Source: Cantharellus purpuraceus (taxonomy: Eukaryota; Basidiomycota; Agaricomycetes; Cantharellales; Hydnaceae). From it: DNA of 64,000 nucleotides. Of this stretch, positions 3,218 to 15,790 are shown piece by piece. Each line of letters opens with the position of its first letter. Within the stretch, counting starts at the first letter, position 1. The notes under the pieces were generated by a model, which was given only the letters and a program-made list of their open reading frames with translations, was not told the DNA's origin and did not search any database. A program made the translations under genes and the position numbers. The stretch lies in assembly GCA_025174535.1 (NCBI GenBank), contig JALBUN010000048.1, forward strand, positions 1,860,001-1,924,000, written 5' to 3'.

Positions 3218-4639
3218 CCGCCGGAGGTGCTCCGACTGCAGGTTAACCAGCCAGATAAGCTGGCCCATGGTACTATTGGGCGCAGAGACGTGCCCTGTAC
3301 CTGCACCGGTCGTTGCCCCTTCTGATCTGACACCGCTACCCCCAGCTGCCACAGCACCCATCTCTGTCCGCCACTTTTTGGTCGGACAACCTTCCGATTC
3401 TTTCTCCGCCCCTCCTTGTACCACTAGTCGGGGCTTGACGCTCCAACTCTGGGGATCAAACTTTCCATCGATCCTACACCCTCCTTTCTGACCCTGACAA
3501 CGATCACAGGACCGAAGGTGGCGAGTTGGGCTGGTAGGCCACACACTCCATGCCCGCATCACGACACAAGTTGCAAATTATGCTGGGCCCACCAAATGGC
3601 TCCGCTGGAGCCAGAGCCTTGGGTGGTCCGCTCCTTCTCGACATGGCCTCCAAGTGTTCCCTCTCCTCCTCCTTGTCCTGCTATTCAGCTGCCGCCTTCT
3701 CCATCTCACGCTTGCAAAGCTGGATCACCGACCTAGCAACATGCAGCTCCTTCTTATGGGTTGCCAACACGTGACTCTCCACCTTGCACCATATGACCCT
3801 CCAATCCGCCTCCCGCTTCTCCATATCAGCACTCGGGTGCACCTTCATGAAAAGATCGTGACCTCGAGGTTCTTCTTGGTGGTAGCAGCATAAAGCTCTG
3901 CTCGTTTTTGAGCCTCGACCGCAGCTACCCAAGCCATCTCCTCATAGCAATTTGAGGTTGGATCCGGCTCCACATCCATCCCCACATCCACGCCCACCTT
4001 GGGCTCCACATTTGCATTGAGCTCCATATTGGCATTGGGATCTGCCTCCACCTCCGCCCTCTCCACCTCCGCCGCTTCATCTTCCTCAGCCGCACCCAAC
4101 CCAAATAATGGCCATGCCTGCAGACATAATGGCAAGTCCACCGCAGGGACAGTTGTCAGACGAGTTGTCTCCATCCACATAATGGAGATGATGGCAGCCT
4201 TGGGGGTCCCTGCCTGTATTGGCACACTTGGACTTCCTGGGTGGCTGGTTGCCCCTGCCCCAGTCACCTCCTCCTCTACCTCCATGGCAGCTTCTAGCTT
4301 GTGCACCTGCTCCTCCACTTCCTTCAGTCTCGTGGCCTCCATCGTGGCTGCAAGTCCTTGACCCTGCGGGCTCACTCAGCTTTCGCTTCCTCCTCTTTCC
4401 TTCTCCATTCCATCTCCACCTCCTCCTTCCGTCTCCATTCCATCTCCGCCTCCTCCTTCCGTCTCCATTCCACCTCCTCCTCCTCCTTCCGTCTCCATTC
4501 CACCTCCTCCTCCTCCTTCCATCTCCATTCTGCTTCCTCCTCCTCTTTCCGTCTCCGCTCCTCTTCCTCTTCCTTCCATCGGGCCAAGAGCAACTGCTCA
4601 AGCTCGGCCACACTCATGCTTGCCAAAGGGTTTGACATC
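3203..4639 (-). pseudogene. Cysteine-rich, coiled-coil element-associated protein, frameshifted
   Basis: Reverse strand, beginning MSNPLASMSVAELEQLLLAR (ATG complement at 4637-4639). It is followed by a highly charged Glu/Arg/Lys/Trp coiled-coil built from a 30-bp tandem repeat, a second frame with a helical segment (ATRLKEVEEQVHKLEAAM, about 4250-4340) and a glycine/glutamate-rich middle. The C-terminal part has two paired-cysteine motifs, CNLCRDAGMEC (about 3550-3590) and CDRCQGQKGGC (about 3480-3515). They read in different frames, separated by a one-base shift at about 3520, so the gene is broken. The paired Cx2C/Cx6C spacing suggests a zinc-binding module. I recall multicopy proteins of this build in Boletales-type genomes, but cannot give a function. 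It sits between retroelements and is probably mobile-element cargo. Confidence 0.55.
4390..4575. repeat. 30-bp tandem repeat encoding a charged coiled-coil
   Basis: About six units of a 30-bp pyrimidine-rich repeat (plus-strand unit ccattccacctcctcctcc followed by tccttccgtct). On the reverse strand they encode ten-residue units of the type EWRRKEEVEM. Units differ by a few substitutions and one or two codons. The period equals ten codons, so expansion keeps the frame of the coiled-coil protein annotated around it. Confidence 0.85.
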
Positions 4640-4784
4640 GTTAAGGATAAGACCTCAATCATGCCCCTCCTTTTATATGTCTCCAGACCCCCAGTATAAC
4701 TCCAACTGCACCTGACCATCTCACCTATTCAATCCATAGACATGAGGCCTCAGGGGCTCGGCCTTAAATGGAGAGATACTGTTA

Positions 4785-5168
4785 TGACTATATTCATTAA
4801 CACCCAGATCCCCGTCTGATCCACTCAGATCCCCACGCATATGAAATCTATACTCCATTTGGAAACCACCACATCTCCCTCTACCTGTCCGATTGTCACC
4901 ACCGATTCCACCCATCCATCTCCGGTTCCGATTGATGCATCAGCATCACCATAGGAACCCAGACATCCATCCCCATCAGACTCGGACATACTCATGTAAG
5001 GCTGTTGGCCTCAGAGACCCATCACCGGAGTAATTATTATTAGATTTCAAATATGTATTTAAGTTGCCCGACTGGGGACTTCAGTTCAAATATCAAATCA
5101 CGCCTAGTTCCTAAGTCTGATCCTAACTCTCTAAGTCATACTCTGTCTCCGAAATCTCAGACACCGGT
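4785..5168 (+). mobile_element. LTR with short internal leader, Ty3-like, 5' end TGTTATGAC
   Basis: The sequence from TGTTATGACT to about CTCAGACA has a second, reverse-oriented and decayed copy at 15170-15432. A third related piece lies at 15433-15790. It is followed by ggtattagtgagggcat, a plausible tRNA primer-binding region, and about 110 bp of leader. It then changes abruptly at about 5285 into the hairpin-rich element. I infer a truncated element: LTR plus leader, with gag lost. The LTR ends are estimates from TG...CA and from where the copies stop matching. Confidence 0.6.
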
Positions 5169-5284
5169 ATTAGTGAGGGCATAGCACATAAGCTGAAGCC
5201 AAGTCCATTCTGACCCCCGCAACGTACCCGACTCCTTCTCCAACTCCGACCAAACCTCCGACCCAATCTCCGACCCCCAATCGG

Positions 5285-8200
5285 ACCTAGTGTGTAACAA
5301 GTTGAGGGATCAATGGAAAGAAAAGTATGCTGACCTATTCAGCAGCATACCCTTAGAACTTCCCCCATTTAGGGAAGTTAACCACAAGATTAATCTCATG
5401 GATCCTGACAAGCAAATACATTATCGCTTGCCTAAGTGTCCAGAGCACTACTGATCAGAACTTTCAGAGAAAGTTCTGCGATACACCACTGCTAAATGGT
5501 GGATATTGGCTACAGCCTGCCAGGCTGTACCAATGCTATGCATTCCCAAAAAAAATGGGAAGATCCACACCATGTTTGACTTGCACGAACAGAATGATAA
5601 TACAGTGAAGGATGTAACACCCTTCCCTGATCAGGACAACATTAGACATGATGTTGCCTGCTGTACATATTGATCTAAACTCAATATGTCTGAGGCATAT
5701 GAACAGATATGCGTCAGACCGACAGATATACCCAAGATGGCATTTGCGACCATCTTGGGGACATTCATCAGTCAAGTCATGCAGCAAGGGGACTGCAATG
5801 CCCCCTCAACATTTCAGCAGCTCATGACTGCCATCTTTTGAGAATATATTGGAAGATTTGTCCATGTATATCTGGATGACATATTTGTGTACTCTTGTAC
5901 TATACAAGAGCATGAACACCACCTAGAGATGGTGTTCACTGAGCTCAGGAAAGCACATATGTTCCTGAGCAAGGATAAAATTGATCTATACTCAACAAGT
6001 ATGGATTGCCTTGGTCACCTAATAGATGACCAAGGCATGCACGCAGATGCTGATAAAATGCAGTGAATATGAGAGTGGAGATGACCTAGGTCATACCATG
6101 AAGTCCAATATTTTCTTGGACTAGTGCAGTATCTGGTGCACTATATGCCAGACATAACTGCATACACAACCCCTTTATCGGGCTGTGCTCATAATAATCA
6201 TCCATTCTTATGGACGCTGCTGCTGGAGAAATGCTTCAAAAGCATCAAGCTCCTAGCATGTAGGGCTCCAATATTGAAGCCCATCAATGTCAATAGCCCC
6301 AATACTATTTGGGTTATTACTGATGGCTCCAAAGCTGGAGTTGGAGCCATCTATGGACAAGGAAAAGATTGGCAGACCTGTCAGCCTGCCAGATTCCTAT
6401 CCAAGAAATTTAGTGCTGCACAACAGCACTATAAGACTCACAAGCACGAGACTATAGCTGTGCTTGAAGCCCTAATGAGATGGGAAGATAAGCTACTAGG
6501 ATGAAAGTTCATCCTAGTAACCAACCACAAGGGTCTCGAATACGTTGAGACCCAAAAGAACCTGCCTCCTAGACAGATTAGGTGGTGGGAGTTCTTATCC
6601 CGTTTCAACTTTACTACCCTGCATATAGACAGGGTAGAGAACAAAGTAGCAGATTGTCTATTGTGCTACTATGCTGATGACTCCCCAACAGAGAGTCATC
6701 CCAACTACATCTACATGAATGCAGATGTACATCTCAACCCTGAAGGAGAACTGCTCCCCATGGAATGGTTCATTGAGATCAGGACAGCAGCAGTCACCCA
6801 AAGGCGACTGCTCAAGAAAAAAGAAAACAGAGTGCTAGAAGCTGAAGCACTCAATGTTCAAACAGAATCATTGAATGATGATTCTAATTCCTCTAAAGAA
6901 ATAGGATGTTGGAGTGATGTCATCAGATGATGACGGAACACCATTGCAATCCCATGTTGAGCATGGGATCAACCTTGTGCAGATTGTACGAGGCACATAT
7001 AGAAAGGATACTGTCCTTTCTAAGGTGCTGAAAGCACCTAAAGAGCATGCACAATTTGGTGTGCATGATGGTCTAATATGGACCAAAAATATATACAAAT
7101 GCAATGTCGTCTGTATACCCCGCTCAGCGTTCCTGAAGGGGAGGCTGGTTGAGATAATAATCAACCAGGTGCACCAAGTAGTTGGCCATTTTGGTCAACC
7201 AAAGACCACAAATTACATTTGACAGCCATACTGGTGGCCAGGCATGACCACCAATGTCAAATCATCCTGCACTTCATGTGCAAAGTGCCAAATGAATAAA
7301 GACGGTATGAAGAAACCTACAGGGCTTCTTCATAGCTTGCCAGTACTGGAACAACCCTGGCAATCAATAGGTATGGACTTTATGGGTCCATTACCAAAAT
7401 TGAATGACTATGACTACCTACTGGTAGTCATAGATTGCTTCACATTGCAGGTACATATAATACCTATGAACACACATGTAACAGCGAAAGGAGTAGCATG
7501 GCTATTCCTTAAAGAAGTTGTACACCTTCATGGTGTACCAGACTTGATCATGTCTGATCAAGATTAGAAATTCACATCTATCTTTTGGCATGAACTACAG
7601 CAGATAATGGGAGTGAAACTCCTCATGTCCACAGTGTTCTATCCGCAAACAGATGGAGCAATGGAATGAGCAAATTGTTCCATTGACCAAATACTTCATA
7701 CCATTGTACAAAGTGATCAGAAAGATTGGGCACACAAGTGTCCAATGGTGGAGTCCATGCTAAACTCCAACATAAGCTCAACAATGGGGTTTACTCTGTT
7801 TGAGCTTAACCACAGGTATATGCCTAGAATAGGCATGCCCATGAACAATGACACCAAGTTCAAGGGTGTCAAACAGTTCACACAGCAGGCTCAAACAAAC
7901 CTGCTAGCAGCACACGATGTGATTATAGAAAGTCATGTCATTCAGATGTTTCATGCCAATAAGAAACGTCAGGAAGGTCCAACCCTCCAGAGAGGTGACA
8001 AAGTCTACCTCTCAACAAAAAACTTGACTCTACCTAAGGGTAAAACCAGCAAACTAGTGCCCAAGTATATCAGGCCCTATAAAGTAATTGAAGCCCATAA
8101 TAAAGCTTCGACAGCGACACTGGAACTGCCACCAGAACTGACTAGTAGGTGCATTACACCTATGTTCCATGTCAGTCTCATTTGACTGTATATGCCAAAT

Positions 8201-8416
8201 GATGAGATGAGATTCCCAAAATGGGAAGTGAAGTCATTTTATGACTTTGGGAACAATGATGAGCAAGAGTGGCCTGTCAATCAAATCATCACTCATCAAT
8301 GGATAAGCGATAAAGAACTTGAATTTCAAGTTCTATGGATGTTGGGAGATGTCACCTGGGAACCTTACACATCGTGTAAGGACCTAGAAGCTCTAGACAA
8401 TTATTTAGAACTTTGA
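5285..8416 (+). mobile_element. Hairpin-rich Ty3/gypsy element: RT, RNase H, integrase, chromodomain; broken
   Basis: Reading through stops gives a full pol order. The RT palm has CIPKKNGK, TPFPDQD, QQGDCNAPSTFQ and the catalytic VYLDDIFVYS box (about 5860-5895). RNase H follows (VITDGSKAGVGAIYGQG, about 6310-6360, with SKKFSAAQQHY). Then come an integrase zinc region (VVGHFG...CTSCAKC), a core with GMDFMGPLPK (about 7375) and YPQTDGAME (about 7640), and a chromodomain-like end (FQVLWMLGDVTWEPY, about 8320-8360). The sequence starts inside RT, so the 5' LTR and gag are missing. In-frame stops at 5451, 5671, 5839, 6082, 6502, 7221 and elsewhere mostly replace family Arg codons (CGA to TGA). 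The YLDD box itself is intact. The DNA throughout carries perfect short inverted repeats (see findings), unlike the other elements here. Confidence 0.93.
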
Positions 8417-8432
8417 GGGGTGACTCGAGTGT

Positions 8433-8670
8433 GAGAACTACCTCATAGATGGTAGTTCTCAGAGAGATGGAGCCCCAAAGATCTAATGGGGCTCAAGGGG
8501 GAGAAGTGGAGCTACCATCAATGATGGTAGCTCAATGAGGGGAGGAGGAACTACCTCAATTAATGGTAGTTCCTGGATAAGGATAGAGCCACCATAACAA
8601 CAGGCAGCTCAATGGCAGAAAAACTGCTCCCATAGGGAGCAGTTCACCATCGTGCTACTCATAGTAGCAC
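8433..8670. repeat. Tandem series of seven short hairpins between pol and the next ORF
   Basis: Six perfect and one imperfect inverted repeats follow each other. Arms are 8433-8442/8451-8460 (gagaactacc/ggtagttctc), 8470-8477/8487-8494, 8509-8519/8523-8533 (gagctaccatc/gatggtagctc), 8546-8555/8565-8574 (aggaactacc/ggtagttcct), an imperfect pair at about 8586-8610, 8622-8631/8635-8644 (aactgctccc/gggagcagtt) and 8652-8659/8663-8670. Loops are 3-9 nt. The words ACTACC/GGTAGT recur in several stems. It is not a CRISPR array, since arms differ and there is no constant repeat. Its role is unknown. Confidence 0.9.
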
Positions 8671-8808
8671 AAGAGAGGTAAGCAATAATTAATTGCATTA
8701 CACCCATGTGACATAGTCACTGGGAAAATTCTCAATAAAGAATTTTCGAGCTCAGCCATAAAAGGCTAGTGGTGTTTCTTTGAACCACCACAACCCCCCT
8801 CCATCAAA

Positions 8809-10745
8809 ATGTCATCTCTCAGAAGGGAGATGATGGATGCTCAAGATGAGCATCCAATGGAAGTTGAACAAACTTCCACAGCAGCAGCACTGGCAACAAG
8901 TGCTGCAGATATGATCAGAGGTCATCAAGATGAGATGACCTGGAAAATTGGCAGATGGCACAGTGGCACTGCCATCCATCACCCTCACAGGTGCAACAAG
9001 TGCAACGCATATGTGTTGCACTTAATCGAGGCCCAAAATGGAGGCCAATTATCTTTCCACTGCTGGTGGAAAGAACATTAAGAGCCATTTGGCCGCAACT
9101 TATATGTGACATCAAAGATGATGTCATGACACCTTATCGTGAAGACTATGATAAGATGTACAAGGATAACTCAGACCTGTTTGTGCAGGTCCAAGAACTT
9201 GAAGGACTTCTCAACAATGAGAAGTCCAAAGTAACTCATCTCAGAGATGAGTTGAAAACACTGAAGGAGGCCACTGATAGAGCACCTCCTACATTCAAGA
9301 CCAAGCTCACAACAGTGCACTTGGCCCCAGTAGCATCGCTATCACGTGCTATGGCAGGCAAATCATTACCTGCCATTATGCCATCACAGCCTGTGGCTTC
9401 ATCATCATGGGAAATGATCGATCTCACCAAAGAGGACAATCTCCCAAGCAAATTGCCTCAGGTCAACCCTCAAGGGTTCAAGGGTCAAGATTGGGATGAC
9501 ACTGACCCAATCTGGGAGGGATATGACCATGATCGTGGTCTCCTCCTGGCTAGCATCCCCAAGGGTGCTAAGCAACCAGGCAAACTCAAAGAGTTTGCCC
9601 TATCAGAAATTGAAGCTGAGGTTGATCAGCTTCAAAAGGAATATATGGCTGGTGACACCAGCCGTACCTTAAAAGACCCAGCATTGAAGATGCTGGAAGA
9701 AGCCCAGCATACAAATTATTGCAAATGCTGGGATGCTCTCAAGCATGCCAATGCAGGGAAATCATTCCCCAAATGGGCACTGTGGTTCATGACTGTGGCT
9801 GACCCTCCCAGAGCAGTCACTGGCCACCTGCCATGACCTCTGGGCAAGTCTGCCCCTATCAGGGCAGACTGGTTCAACATCTGCGATACAGACACTCTGG
9901 AGTTCATATTGCTCCATAAAAATGCATTGGCCACGCCATTCATGGAATGGACTGTACTGATGCACAGAGTCATCAAGAGAATGACTCTGCTGGCTTGCAC
10001 TGATAACACAAGTCTTATCGTCACTCTACCAACCACACCAGTAGACACACTTGCCCTCATACAGGGGTGGCAAGTAAACCCTAATGGGGTCCCCCCAGCT
10101 ATCCAACAGGAGTTGGATGGTATGATGAACTTGTCCAATGTGGACATCTGGATGTGGCTGCAAAAGGCCACTCCCAAGAAGGGTTCTTTTGTGTTCAAGA
10201 AGAACCTCTGGACCATGTTCCAGAATCCCAGCCACTGGGAATCATTGACCAGTGGTCAAAAGTTCTCACCAACTCTTGGTGACACCTTTCGTGCTTCAGT
10301 CACTGGAGTGTATGATTGGGGGAATTGCTCCCCCAAAGAACATACTGAATTAGAGCTTGTGCTCTGGTTTGGGTGATCAGGAGGCATCACCCCCGATCGT
10401 GCTGCTATATTAGAGGAGTTTGCTAAATGCATCGCCTCTGGAGCAGCTTCTAACCAGCCCGCTAGGGTTGGTAAGCAAAAGCAGGAGACTCAAGGAGTCT
10501 CCCAAGCAGCTCATAAAGCTGCTAAATGCTCTCTTGATGAGCATTTAGGTCACAATCAACTTAATCATGAACTCGATAGGGATGCTGCAGTAGCAATTGC
10601 ATCCTCCTCATCCATTCAAGTGGATGAGGATACTGCAACCACTTTGGGGACAACTGAGAGCCATCCTCCTCCAGAACCATATGAACAAGATGATCATATG
10701 GACACCGACTCATTGGAACAGCTTCATAAGGAGCTGTATGATTAA
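8809..10745 (+). pseudogene. Additional ORF downstream of pol in the hairpin-rich element
   Basis: The frame begins MSSLRREMMDAQDEHPMEVE at 8809, shifts frame near 8960-9030, then runs to 9836. After a TGA it continues at 9840-10376 and past a second TGA to a stop at 10743-10745, giving about 640 residues in the repaired reading. It shows an N-terminal low-complexity region, a probable coiled coil (VQELEGLLNNEKSKVTHLRD, about 9185-9245), a segment DLTKEDN and a Trp-rich C-terminal half (WDDTDPIWEGYDHD, WFNICDTDTLEF). There is no zinc knuckle or protease. A TATA-like ataaaagg sits about 50 bp upstream. It lies after pol and directly before the polypurine tract, the place where env-like or accessory ORFs sit. 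Product unrecognised; a gag-like structural role is possible but unproven. Confidence 0.6.
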
Positions 10746-10771
10746 GAAGTACTGAATGAGATCACGTCTCA

Positions 10772-11056
10772 TTCAAAAAGGGGAGGGTGTAAGTACCCAA
10801 GGTACTTACTTACTATAGTATATAAGTATAATTGATATATGCAGCATTCCCTTAAGGAATGTTGTCCTCTTGGTAGATGTATGCACCCATAGGGTGCATA
10901 TGTATAGTTATTATGTAAGCCAGTGGACCCAGTACATGTGTGGGTCCACTTATAGTAGATAGAACTTAGTTAACTACCACACTGTACAACACATTGCCCA
11001 ACCAATACACTTGGTTGAGTTCTGTGCAATGGTGTGAACTAAGACACACATTAACA
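10772..11056 (+). mobile_element. Polypurine tract and 3' LTR of the hairpin-rich element
   Basis: A purine run ending aaaaaggggaggg (to 10787) is followed at once by TGTAAGTACC, a classic PPT/LTR junction. The LTR would run to about ACATTAACA at 11056 (about 269 bp, TG...CA). It carries perfect inverted repeats at 10789-10797/10801-10809, about 10881-10900 (atgcaccc/gggtgcat) and 10922-10930/10942-10950 (agtggaccc/gggtccact), and a TATA-like tatataag near 10819. No second copy is in the window, so its ends are estimates. Confidence 0.65.
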
Positions 11057-11059
11057 TCC

Positions 11060-12119
11060 ACCCCTCTGCTTGGCCCTATCTACTTGCTATCCCAAAAAGA
11101 GCTACTGGCTCTCTGAACATTCATAGATGAGAACTTGGCTATGGGCTTTATCTGCCCATCCCTATCCCCCCATGGAGCTCCAGTTCTATTTGTCTGCAAA
11201 AAGGACAGATCACTCTGTTTATGTGTCAACTTCTGTGGACTCAACAAGATCACCAAGAAAGACTGGTACCCAATACCTTGCACCACAGACCTGCTTGAGA
11301 GCCCACAAAAGGCTAAAATCTATTCCAAAATACATGCCTATCATCTAGTCCGTATCTGAGGAGGTGATGAGTGGAAAACAACTTTCTGCACTTGATATGG
11401 ATCTTTCAAATGGTGTGTCATGCCCTTCAGACTAACCAATGCTCTGGCTGCCTTCCAGTGGTTCATGAACAATACATTTGCCAATCTCCTCGATGTTACC
11501 ATCCTCGTTTACTTAGACAACATTTTGGTATATTCAGATAATGAGGATGAACATCAGACACATGTCCAAGAGGTACTCTGATGTCTCCACAAACATGGCC
11601 TCTTCACCCATGCCAACAAATGTGAATTCCACTCCAACTCAGTTGAGTATCTAGGCTATATCCTCTCCCCTGCAGGACTGATAATGTCTGATGACAAAAT
11701 CAAAGCCATACAGGAATAGCCAGAACCACAGAAAGTCAAAGATGTACAGTCTTTCCTAGGGTTCACCAACTTCTACTGATGCTTCATCCACAACTACTCC
11801 AATATTACCATTCCGCTCACCTGGCTTACTAGGAAGGGTATCCAATGGAATTTCACTGATGAATGTAGACAGAGTTTTGAGACCTTGAAAAAGGCCTTTA
11901 CCTCTGCTCCAATACTAACTCATTGGGTTCCAGATGTTCCTATCCTATGAGAAACCGATGCCTCCAACTATGCACTCACTGCAATCCTGTCCATCATCTC
12001 TCCAGATGACAGACAAGTCCATCTGATCACTTTTCACTCACATACATTTATGCCCCCTGAACTGAACTATGATGTCCATGACAAAGAGCTCCTTGCCATA
12101 TATGAAGCTTTCCAGTGAC
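11060..12119 (+). mobile_element. Ty3/gypsy RT-RNase H fragment, degenerate, 3' end deleted
   Basis: A typical chromoviral RT reading with stops: [36 protein letters not shown], then the active-site box as [12 protein letters not shown] (YLDN instead of YLDD, about 11500-11530), YLGYILSPAGL, and the RNase H start (ETDASNYALTAILS, about 11950). It breaks off at KELLAIYEAFQ (about 12115). There it is joined directly to the antisense-ORF region of the 1808-3217 family through the shared word agccaggatgcatcgagga. An internal deletion of RNase H, integrase and chromodomain explains this. Stops are mostly TGA at family Arg or Trp positions. It probably belongs to the same element family as 1-1429. 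Confidence 0.88.
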
Positions 12120-13569
12120 AAGCCAGGATGCATCGAGGATGTATATCAAATCACTTTGACAGTCAAACACTGCCAGCATCATTTGTATCAAGCTTTTAAA
12201 TAGTGCTGCAACTCCCTCTCCACCTCAGTCTCTATGTCTAGCCTTTGATCATCACTCATGTTTCATTGCCATCAATCATTATCAGCCTTCTATTCACACC
12301 AATCCTTTCATCATCATTCACATGGCTTCCAATTCTATTCCTCTCTCCAACATCTCTTCTAATAATACATCACACTGGTCTCTGGACACAGAGGACTATC
12401 AAAAATACACTGAGCTCCACAGGCATGTTAAGCCACCTCCACATGTCAAAATCTTCCAAAACTCTTTCAATGTCCAAGATCCCCACCTTGTCTCTCTTAT
12501 GCCATTGGTGATCCCATATTCTTTGACGATTCCATTGAACCATATTCCTCTGCATTTCACCTCTATATCATAACACGGATAAAAGAGTCAAATGTGAGGT
12601 AGAGTTTCAGTTGCCATTGCTGATCTATCCTCCCACTTCAATCCAACTCAGGTTACATCATGTCAGGCAAAGGGACCAAATACCCTTGGAATGGGATACC
12701 ATATGGAGATGGAGTATTTGTTGTGGAAGCTGACTAAAGTCCTCATGTGACTCAGGGTCAACTTACCTTCGGAGCTGTAGGGAAGATGGTATTGGTGGAT
12801 GTTTCTATTGTTCTTTTATATGACTCACCCCTGTTTCATCTTTTAATTCATTCATACACAACTTACTCATCCTTGTTCTATTTTTTTTGGTTCTTTTATT
12901 ACTCATCACCTCCTATTCTTACAAAGATTACCCCTATCTGTCGCTTCATTTCTCCATGATTTCCCCACATGCTTCATCAGCTGGCTTGATCAGCATTTCT
13001 TGCATCATACCGCATCATTTGCTCCTCATATTGTGTCATTGTGCCCTGGGGATTTGTATATAAAAGGGCACTAGTTTTCACCTTTTGGAAGCAATCAACA
13101 AGTTTTCAGCCCACGCTCTAAAGTCCAAGTCCATGCTCTAAGTCTACACTCTACACTCTACATCACAATCCATCAGCTCTACACTGAGGTAAAGCACCTT
13201 GGTTCAACAATCAGATTTCCCTCCCCCACCAAGAGGTCACATCTCCTGGGACCAGCTTTCACATACCTCTCAACCAGGCTCCCCATCGTCCTCCAGTCAC
13301 AGAGCACAATCAACCATCTCACCAGAAAGTCCCAGAGTGCAATCTACCATCTTGACCATCCTTTTCACTCCCCATCATCCTCCAGTCACAGAGCACTATA
13401 AATCAGCTCAACAGCACCCTCTTCATTCACCCTCACCAGACACAGAGCACTATTACACTTACCCATTACTCAGTGCTACCCCTCGGCCTAACTGTTCTTT
13501 GGCATGCTGAACAACTGCGTTACACACCATCTGTTTGCAGGCTTATAGGATCCATTCCATAAGTGAACC
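12117..13569 (+). repeat. Retroelement tail plus LTR-like sequence, copy 2 (pair with 1808-3217)
   Basis: Second copy of the chromoviral tail. It aligns with 1808-3217 and differs mainly by C-to-T or G-to-A changes at former CpG sites, plus small deletions (for example near 12690 and 12965). It keeps the TATA-like box (13057-13066) and the right end gaaccgaca. After 13569 the sequence passes directly into copia pol. With 11060-12119 it forms the right half of one internally deleted element. Confidence 0.8.
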
Positions 13570-15432: not shown

Positions 15433-15790
15433 ATGTTACAGTAGTTTGTATATTGAATAAGTGTAACACCTACTGTTCTACTTCTGTTGCTAGCTTCTTG
15501 ACAAGTCAAACTCTGGATCCTTGATCCAACTCCATAACCCCAAACTCTGAAATATTGGACAGATAATTTGAGGAGGCACAATGCATAAGTTGAGGCCAAG
15601 TCCACTTGATCCAACCCAATAATTCTGCACCATCTATCTCTGGTTGATATAGTAACGTCCTCATCCCTTACTACTCTTAACTCCAAACTCTGGTAACTCC
15701 TCCAGACTCTATCCGAACCCTTAACACAAATGTCATACATTATAACACCCTTTGAAGACCAAAAAGTTGATTGTCATGGACTAGCAGGTC
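15433..15790. repeat. Related LTR/leader fragment
   Basis: Part of this stretch (about 15560-15625, word gcataagttgaggccaag) resembles the leader after the first LTR (5150-5215, word cataagctgaagccaag) in the same orientation, at lower similarity. It looks like a more distant copy of the same family lying next to the inverted LTR. The last 200 bp before the DnaJ gene show nothing I recognise. Confidence 0.4.

Follow-up and report, generated by a model that had tools for sequence, protein, structure and literature searches.

The 64,000-nucleotide stretch of the Cantharellus purpuraceus genome analysed here (the window) carries, at positions 5300–11056 of its plus strand, what is, judging by its domains and repeats, a CpG-decayed copy of a Ty3-type long terminal repeat (LTR) element that runs from within pol to the end of the 3′ LTR and is interrupted at 5300. 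Before it multiplied in this genome, the source sequence of this element was a chain of short perfect Watson–Crick hairpins, with stems of 7 to ~11 bp and loops mostly of 3–10 nucleotides, extending through the gag side, pol, a spacer, an extra open reading frame (ORF) and the LTR. Copies that are ~90% identical occur genome-wide, and they make it possible both to recover the pattern of the source and to ask how it arose.

The excess is plain in the window copy alone. An exact search of 5300–11056 for maximal perfect inverted repeats (stem of at least 8 bp, loop of 3–20 nucleotides) found 60, comprising 27 stems of 8 bp, 17 of 9 bp, 10 of 10 bp and 6 of 11 bp, none longer and all with loops of 18 or fewer. 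Dinucleotide shuffles of the same interval yielded a mean of 1.69 (n = 500; standard deviation (SD) 1.30, maximum 6), and a smaller set gave 1.8 (n = 100; maximum 6). The first-pass annotation of this DNA had counted about 47 such hairpins against a random expectation of about two; the expectation was correct, and the count proves to be an underestimate of a saturation stronger than was claimed. All eight pairs of arms that it cited are present, although two pair one base deeper than it had placed them (5456/5469, 10 bp; 6322/6341, 11 bp). Examples on the plus strand from the exact search include 11-bp stems at 6322–6351, in the ribonuclease H (RNase H) stretch TDGSKAGVGAI, at 7408–7433 in integrase (loop 4) and at 8509–8533 in the spacer (loop 3), and a 10-bp stem with a loop of 9 at 10922–10950 in the LTR. 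The excess is already visible at a stem of 5 (100 compared with 69 expected), and the bulk of it lies in short loops. A total lack of excess at long loops, which we had considered, was dropped on checking, as loops of 21–400 show a slight one (46 compared with 34.3; SD 5.3, maximum 48, 10 shuffles). Direct repeats in the interval show no excess (3 compared with 4.3 expected) and mirror repeats are few (3 compared with 0.95). Adenine flanks the stem on both sides in 25 of 91 cases, where 12 are expected.

Much of this DNA is coding, and the hairpins are not a by-product of the codons it uses. Synonymous shuffles holding amino acids and codon usage (200 shuffles, stem of at least 8 bp) left a mean of 0.55 stems in 5302–6925 (maximum 4; 16 observed), 0.55 in 6905–8415 (maximum 4; 11 observed) and 0.29 in the extra ORF at 8955–9836 (maximum 2; 11 observed). 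Counts lie far outside the range of both the dinucleotide and the codon shuffles that the first-pass annotation had called for, and its claim of saturation is not refuted. No clear preference was seen in the codon positions used in pairing, and the density of these stems in the window copy is 20.3 per kb in the spacer compared with 8.7 in pol. The price paid in protein was gauged against homologs (31 of 158 in alignment A1, 47 of 251 in A2 and 3 of 3 in A3, the extra ORF), using two coding stretches and leaving out the extra ORF, codons with fewer than 10 homologs, and 24 codons that touch both arms or lie partly in a stem. Among codons conserved between copies, the homolog majority residue stands at 36 of 43 stem codons (left arm 17 of 21, right arm 19 of 22) compared with 125 of 155 elsewhere; where codons vary between copies, it stands at 8 of 18 in left arms, 12 of 18 in right arms and 24 of 51 elsewhere. 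Within the two stretches tested, the hairpins therefore carry no measurable amino-acid cost, and the earlier proposition that protein sequence and complementarity evolved together was right in effect.

The pattern belongs to the element and not to its surroundings. At a stem of at least 8 bp, a Ty3 remnant at 1–1429 has 0 stems (0.2 expected), a second at 11060–12119 has 1 (0.35 expected) and the window from 12200 to 64000 has 17 (11 expected), so the neighbours lack the saturation, just as the initial reading by eye had it, and do not approach equal density. We searched 40.15 Mb in 50 contigs of this genome for further copies. At the DNA level there are at least 52 matches of ~90% identity (the best 40 of 254 candidates were scored), and at the protein level at least 146–151 matches per query, many of them fragments and the last entries in two of three listings being other families. 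All 30 loci fetched, numbered from L001 (the window copy), carry 18–49 stems of at least 8 bp, compared with 0.6–2.6 expected for each (5 shuffles each), and two gag-side loci, L064 and L066, carry 16 and 19 compared with 0.75 and 1.38. Because the pattern is common to the 30 loci and both gag-side loci, the stems must already have been present in the source element.

Other Ty3 families in the genome behave differently. Nine loci from about four of them hold 13 stems in total compared with 6.8 expected, five of the 13 in L063 and two of those in a duplicated stretch; 29 other integrase loci hold 54 compared with 26.3, and a comparison interval at 15501–64000 holds 17 compared with 11. A mild inverted-repeat excess is thus general in this genome and saturation is not, the latter being specific to the element as far as sampled. 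The families of L061–L063, which are ~41% identical to it in integrase, are not saturated. One of these related loci, L063:1–3001, has 8 stems of at least 7 bp compared with 2.7, partly through internal duplication, and possibly displays a weaker form of the same property. L054 was considered as a second saturated family (8 compared with 0.8) and rejected, as 10 of its 18 stems of at least 7 bp lie at 253–900, where a gag-like fragment of the hairpin family adjoins a different element that carries integrase. Milder excesses occur in L035 (5 compared with 1.2) and L058 (3 compared with 1.3). Separately, a repeat found at L035:2043–2608, L058:2172–2779 and L054:1–176, where it adjoins the gag-like piece, contains a 14-bp perfect hairpin that recurs in L010, L018, L020 and L021. 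Pieces of the element gave only weak matches to loci L031–L060 (best E = 0.027), and DNA of relatives from other genomes was not found in the viral contigs or genome contigs searched.

To allow for decay, we also scored allele-compatible hairpins, in which the bases seen among copies permit two columns to pair. The 5757 bases hold 120 non-overlapping hairpins of this kind with stems of at least 7 bp (31 of 7 bp, 34 of 8, 22 of 9, 19 of 10, 12 of 11 and 2 of 12), which span 50% of the interval including loops and place 36% of it in stems. False pairing rules returned only 19–31 hairpins (8–14% spanned) and, at a stem of at least 8 bp, 9–12 compared with 89. Density at this threshold is 22.2 per kb in the LTR, 20.3 in the spacer, 15.1 in pol (47 in 3.1 kb) and 12.8 in the extra ORF, and histograms of gaps and of centre distances show a spacing near random. 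Individual copies in the loci searched contain nine stems of 12–14 bp altogether, of which at least four belong to a single repeated 14-bp hairpin.

The stems have not been maintained since insertion. The observed/expected ratio of CpG is 0.16–0.20 in the element compared with 0.89 for the remaining window sequence, and in-frame TGA codons at positions that presumably once encoded arginine fit CpG decay; this looks like the methylation-driven decay of a resident element. Double changes in stems among copies restore pairing in 142 of 158 cases (47 expected), nearly all of them at CpG-derived sites. Across 41 pairs with variation on both sides, the state of one arm does not depend on that of the other (Mantel–Haenszel odds ratio 0.95), and variants away from CpG with the minor allele in at least three copies (stems 51/1287, linkers 56/1575, loops 23/513) are mostly uncompensated where they fall in stems. 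These three results led us to reject compensatory evolution among the copies, and the idea that stems are kept by compensatory change, as tested among copies in this genome, finds no support, with the pair 8724/8747, a possible true double change in six of eight copies, as its one potential exception. Non-CpG variation amounts to 2.2% for stems, 2.1% for linkers and 2.8% for loops, and transversion sites number 93/1506 in stems and 92/1780 in linkers when confined to a single copy and 13 and 12 when shared; these counts omit L015 and L025, near-duplicates of L014 and L024, and columns with fewer than eight rows. Since stems and linkers vary equally, the perfect stems came from the source element, with no visible upkeep afterwards. 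Stems decay neutrally after insertion, mainly by CpG deamination. Between 22 copies, transversion distances average 0.0077 per pair, and the copies look like the product of one recent burst.

The pairing is also close to strand-symmetric. Selection on RNA pairing should favour G–U over A–C. Conserved single mismatches inside stems include 18 G–T (11.3 expected) and 21 A–C (14.9 expected); mismatches at stem ends in the window copy include 11 G–T (12.9) and 18 A–C (17.1), or 5 and 16 at conserved sites only. Folding energies are far below those of shuffles in all 10 plus-strand pieces (z = −3.8 to −9.0), as expected of ordered RNA structure, and the minus strand behaves alike (−2.2 to −10.4), compared with −2.0 to +1.3 for six pieces elsewhere in the window. 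Neither a preference for G–U over A–C nor an advantage of the sense strand, the marks of pairing at the RNA level, was seen. Equal tolerance of G–T and A–C, together with good folding of either strand, argues for a near strand-symmetric inverted-repeat property, and it disfavours selection for RNA structure, one of three causes proposed in the first-pass annotation.

The two arms nevertheless differ in one respect. We compared their fit to the base usage of unpaired element sequence under Markov models of orders 0, 1 and 2. Among hairpins with a stem of at least 8 bp, the 5′ arm fits better in 38 and the 3′ arm in 22 (p = 0.010); across the three orders, the 5′ advantage has p = 0.011, 0.010 and 0.007 at this threshold and 0.021, 0.029 and 0.030 for stems of at least 7 bp. 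Adding L066 gives p = 0.008 and 0.0035 (L066 alone, 0.016 at both stem thresholds), and hairpins that arose by chance elsewhere in the window show no asymmetry (p = 0.92). It is suggestive that 5′ arms look native and 3′ arms copied, as fold-back on a plus-sense nascent strand predicts. Intrastrand template switches are described as correcting by the 5′ base (PMC8794818).

The explanation to which we lean, with real reserve, is that, before the burst, the reverse transcriptase of the element itself turned quasi-palindromes into perfect ones by fold-back template switching. The hairpins would then stem from a templated mutation process within the replication cycle. During reverse transcription, most likely in plus-strand DNA synthesis, the nascent strand would fold back at weak quasi-palindromes, use its own 5′ arm to template a few bases and then rejoin the original template, leaving the 3′ arm as a perfect complement. 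Over many cycles, filtered by protein function, most tolerated quasi-palindromes could become perfect hairpins, and a limit of roughly one helical turn on the copied tract would account for a ceiling near 11 bp. Once a copy has integrated, the process would fall silent and leave it to decay, chiefly through CpG deamination. We favour fold-back by the element's machinery because the pattern is specific to one family as far as sampled, strand-symmetric, local with short loops, asymmetric from 5′ to 3′ arm, denser in spacer and LTR than in pol, and inactive on resident copies. Template switching in reverse transcription is in this respect the best of the three causes first put forward, and it is not proven. 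Stated more broadly, it is possible, and we hold this a shade more loosely, that in this lineage the replication machinery of a retroelement keeps rewriting the element's whole genome as short perfect hairpins, through an element-encoded process filtered by protein coding.

Several observations weigh against fold-back. First, the arm asymmetry is modest and several variants of the test were tried, and L064 taken alone shows none (p = 0.50 and 0.67). Second, no conversion event was caught, everything being inferred from one source sequence. Third, families with ~41% integrase identity lack saturation, which requires that the process began, or grew stronger, within this lineage. Fourth, neither fold-back nor selection explains the adenines on both stem flanks (25 compared with 12) or the drop after 11 bp. 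Finally, toy simulations with random proteins raise difficulties. With residues strictly fixed, most fold-back runs fall short (0–20 stems of at least 8 bp per 1.5 kb, mostly fewer than 10, compared with ~23 allele-compatible in pol); frequent point mutation abolishes the build-up of hairpins; and runs with an 11-bp maximum still yield stems of 12–16 bp, so the drop past 11 bp is not a natural outcome. In some settings, with conservative changes allowed and switch attempts far more frequent than point mutations, fold-back does reach or exceed the observed density. For partly free codons, one toy model predicts more altered residues in 3′ arms (0.51 compared with 0.24), which is not seen, and another predicts none. 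Such simulations bound what is feasible under their assumptions and do not decide between explanations.

The main rival, which we rank below fold-back and regard as rather doubtful although it deserves serious weight, is that selection favoured a series of short hairpins in genomic RNA, single-stranded complementary DNA or DNA cruciforms, serving packaging, protection or evasion of silencing, with the ~11-bp limit avoiding sensors or Dicer. It draws strength from several results: dense hairpins come at no amino-acid cost, the folding energies are strong, the stem-length ceiling looks like design, and hill-climbing selection on random proteins with residues fixed gave 9 and 10 stems of at least 8 bp per 450 nucleotides in two runs, surpassing the allele-compatible density of pol. 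However, G–T is not favoured over A–C inside stems (18 compared with 21) or at their ends (11 compared with 18), both strands fold well and there is hardly any excess of long-range pairing. Nor are shared variants depleted in stems relative to linkers, an observation to which so short a burst lends little power.

It is improbable, in our view, that the repeats were perfected by template switching while the host replicated or repaired its DNA, in a chromosomal ancestor from which the later copies arose. Such switching in DNA replication is reported to create and maintain hairpins (PMC8794818), and strand symmetry would follow from it. Against this, the other families sampled in this genome are unsaturated, resident copies of the hairpin family show neutral decay only, and the sequence had to remain functional while it gathered hairpins. 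The same neutral decay and unaffected families disfavour repair by the host of copies already resident, the remaining cause suggested at first. An artefact or compositional effect (chance, assembly error, CpG decay or repeat copying) is scarcely credible: CpG is strongly depleted and the paired double changes between copies are nearly all CpG decay, but the excess survives dinucleotide and synonymous-codon shuffles, recurs in 30 of 30 loci and is missing from similarly CpG-poor elements (L061, L062 and L069), and the stem arms share no common sequence to the eye.

The architecture supports the assignment to Ty3-type elements that was originally claimed, all features lying on the plus strand. 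Pfam domains for reverse transcriptase, RNase H and integrase follow in that order in a frame broken by stops, with RVT_1, RNase H and the zinc-binding and SH3 domains of integrase above cut-off in at least one piece and rve below. RVT_1 pieces interrupted by TGA codons occupy 5674–6063 (E = 4.1e-10 at 5842–6063; 0.0011, under cut-off, at 5674–5838). The RNase H domain at 6088–6927 (RT_RNaseH_2, E = 2.7e-15, plus RT_RNaseH) holds the hairpins at 6322 and 6494 and is 61–78% identical to 47 aligned homologs among public predicted proteins; integrase, at 7223–8182, comprises the zinc-binding domain, rve core and a Tf2-like SH3 domain and is 43–72% identical to the homologs listed from the same source. 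The spacer at 8414–8954 is richest in hairpins (11 stems of at least 8 bp in 541 nucleotides), and its end may be coding, as a frame is open from ~8809 in another phase than the ORF at 8955. That extra ORF (8955–9836) has no match in a Pfam search and three JGI homologs of 43–48% identity; its start is uncertain, most genomic copies aligning only from about residue 33. A further open frame without a Pfam match lies 3′ of it (9909–10376), and the region 8809–10745, between integrase and 3′ LTR, is repeated many times in the genome and probably encodes an accessory protein of a Ty3 lineage whose start is uncertain. A polypurine tract read from the sequence, AAAAAGGGGAGGG (10775–10787), directly precedes the 3′ LTR (10788–11056; ~269 bp, TG...CA), which is matched by LTR-like insertions in L018 and L027, the latter bordered by the 5-bp repeat AACTC. 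The gag-like frame in L054 maps, as called by eye, beside several pol copies. An Rfam scan of 4500–12200 returned nothing above the gathering score.

At its 5′ edge the window copy adjoins another LTR-like repeat (TG...CA) at ~4780–5299, which recurs within or next to several further copies of the element. Simple truncation at 5300 is ruled out by this abutting repeat. Alignments begin exactly at 5300 in 19 of 31 loci and cross it in none, which together with the repeat indicates that the 5′ half of the window copy was displaced or lost. Further upstream, 4086–4635 is a tandem arginine/serine-rich repeat with several overlapping ORFs on both strands.

In the literature that we searched, with most subscription journals outside it, we found no description of a retroelement saturated with hairpins in this way. 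Either the mutational habit of a reverse transcriptase shapes every kilobase of this element, or selection wrote a hairpin code over the protein code, and the share of hairpin evolution owed to mutation by template switching and to selection becomes testable. If the former is true, a self-rewriting lineage would amount to a new type of directed mutation regime among mobile elements.

Comparison with known systems sharpens the contrast. Plus-strand RNA viruses have genome-scale ordered RNA structure, with folding energies far below those of shuffles across coding sequence. This element differs in being alike on both strands, in lacking a G–U preference and in consisting mostly of local perfect stems. 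A survey of inverted repeats in 118,019 genomes (arms of at least 10, spacer of at most 8) gives means of 1.91 for Eukaryota and 1.93 for viruses and a maximum of 180 in a partitivirus (PMC13155455); by its criterion, the window copy has 51 inverted-repeat bases per kb, the allele-compatible set 102 and the window from 12201 to 64000 only 0.8. The survey may discuss mobile elements as well. Hairpins made by template switching in RNA genes (Monttinen and Loytynoja 2022, PMC8794818) share perfect Watson–Crick stems and short loops and are corrected by the 5′ base, as the arm asymmetry suggests for this element, but are single events in genes under structural selection, whereas here a whole coding element is saturated, the event is inferred and there is no known reason to preserve structure. 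Plant Sireviruses also carry palindromes in an LTR element, but these repeat a single type of motif, located near env and in the 3′ LTR and considered regulatory, rather than dozens of unrelated, mostly coding sequences (PMC2829016). Finally, with Ty3/Gypsy (Metaviridae) LTR retrotransposons the element shares reverse transcriptase, RNase H, an integrase with zinc-binding and SH3 domains, a polypurine tract, a TG...CA LTR and a 5-bp repeat at an LTR-like insertion, and it departs from them in its perfect hairpins every few dozen bases and in an extra 3′ ORF without a Pfam match, the other Ty3 families sampled in the genome being unsaturated. It is an ordinary Ty3-type machine with a sequence property far beyond anything sampled nearby.

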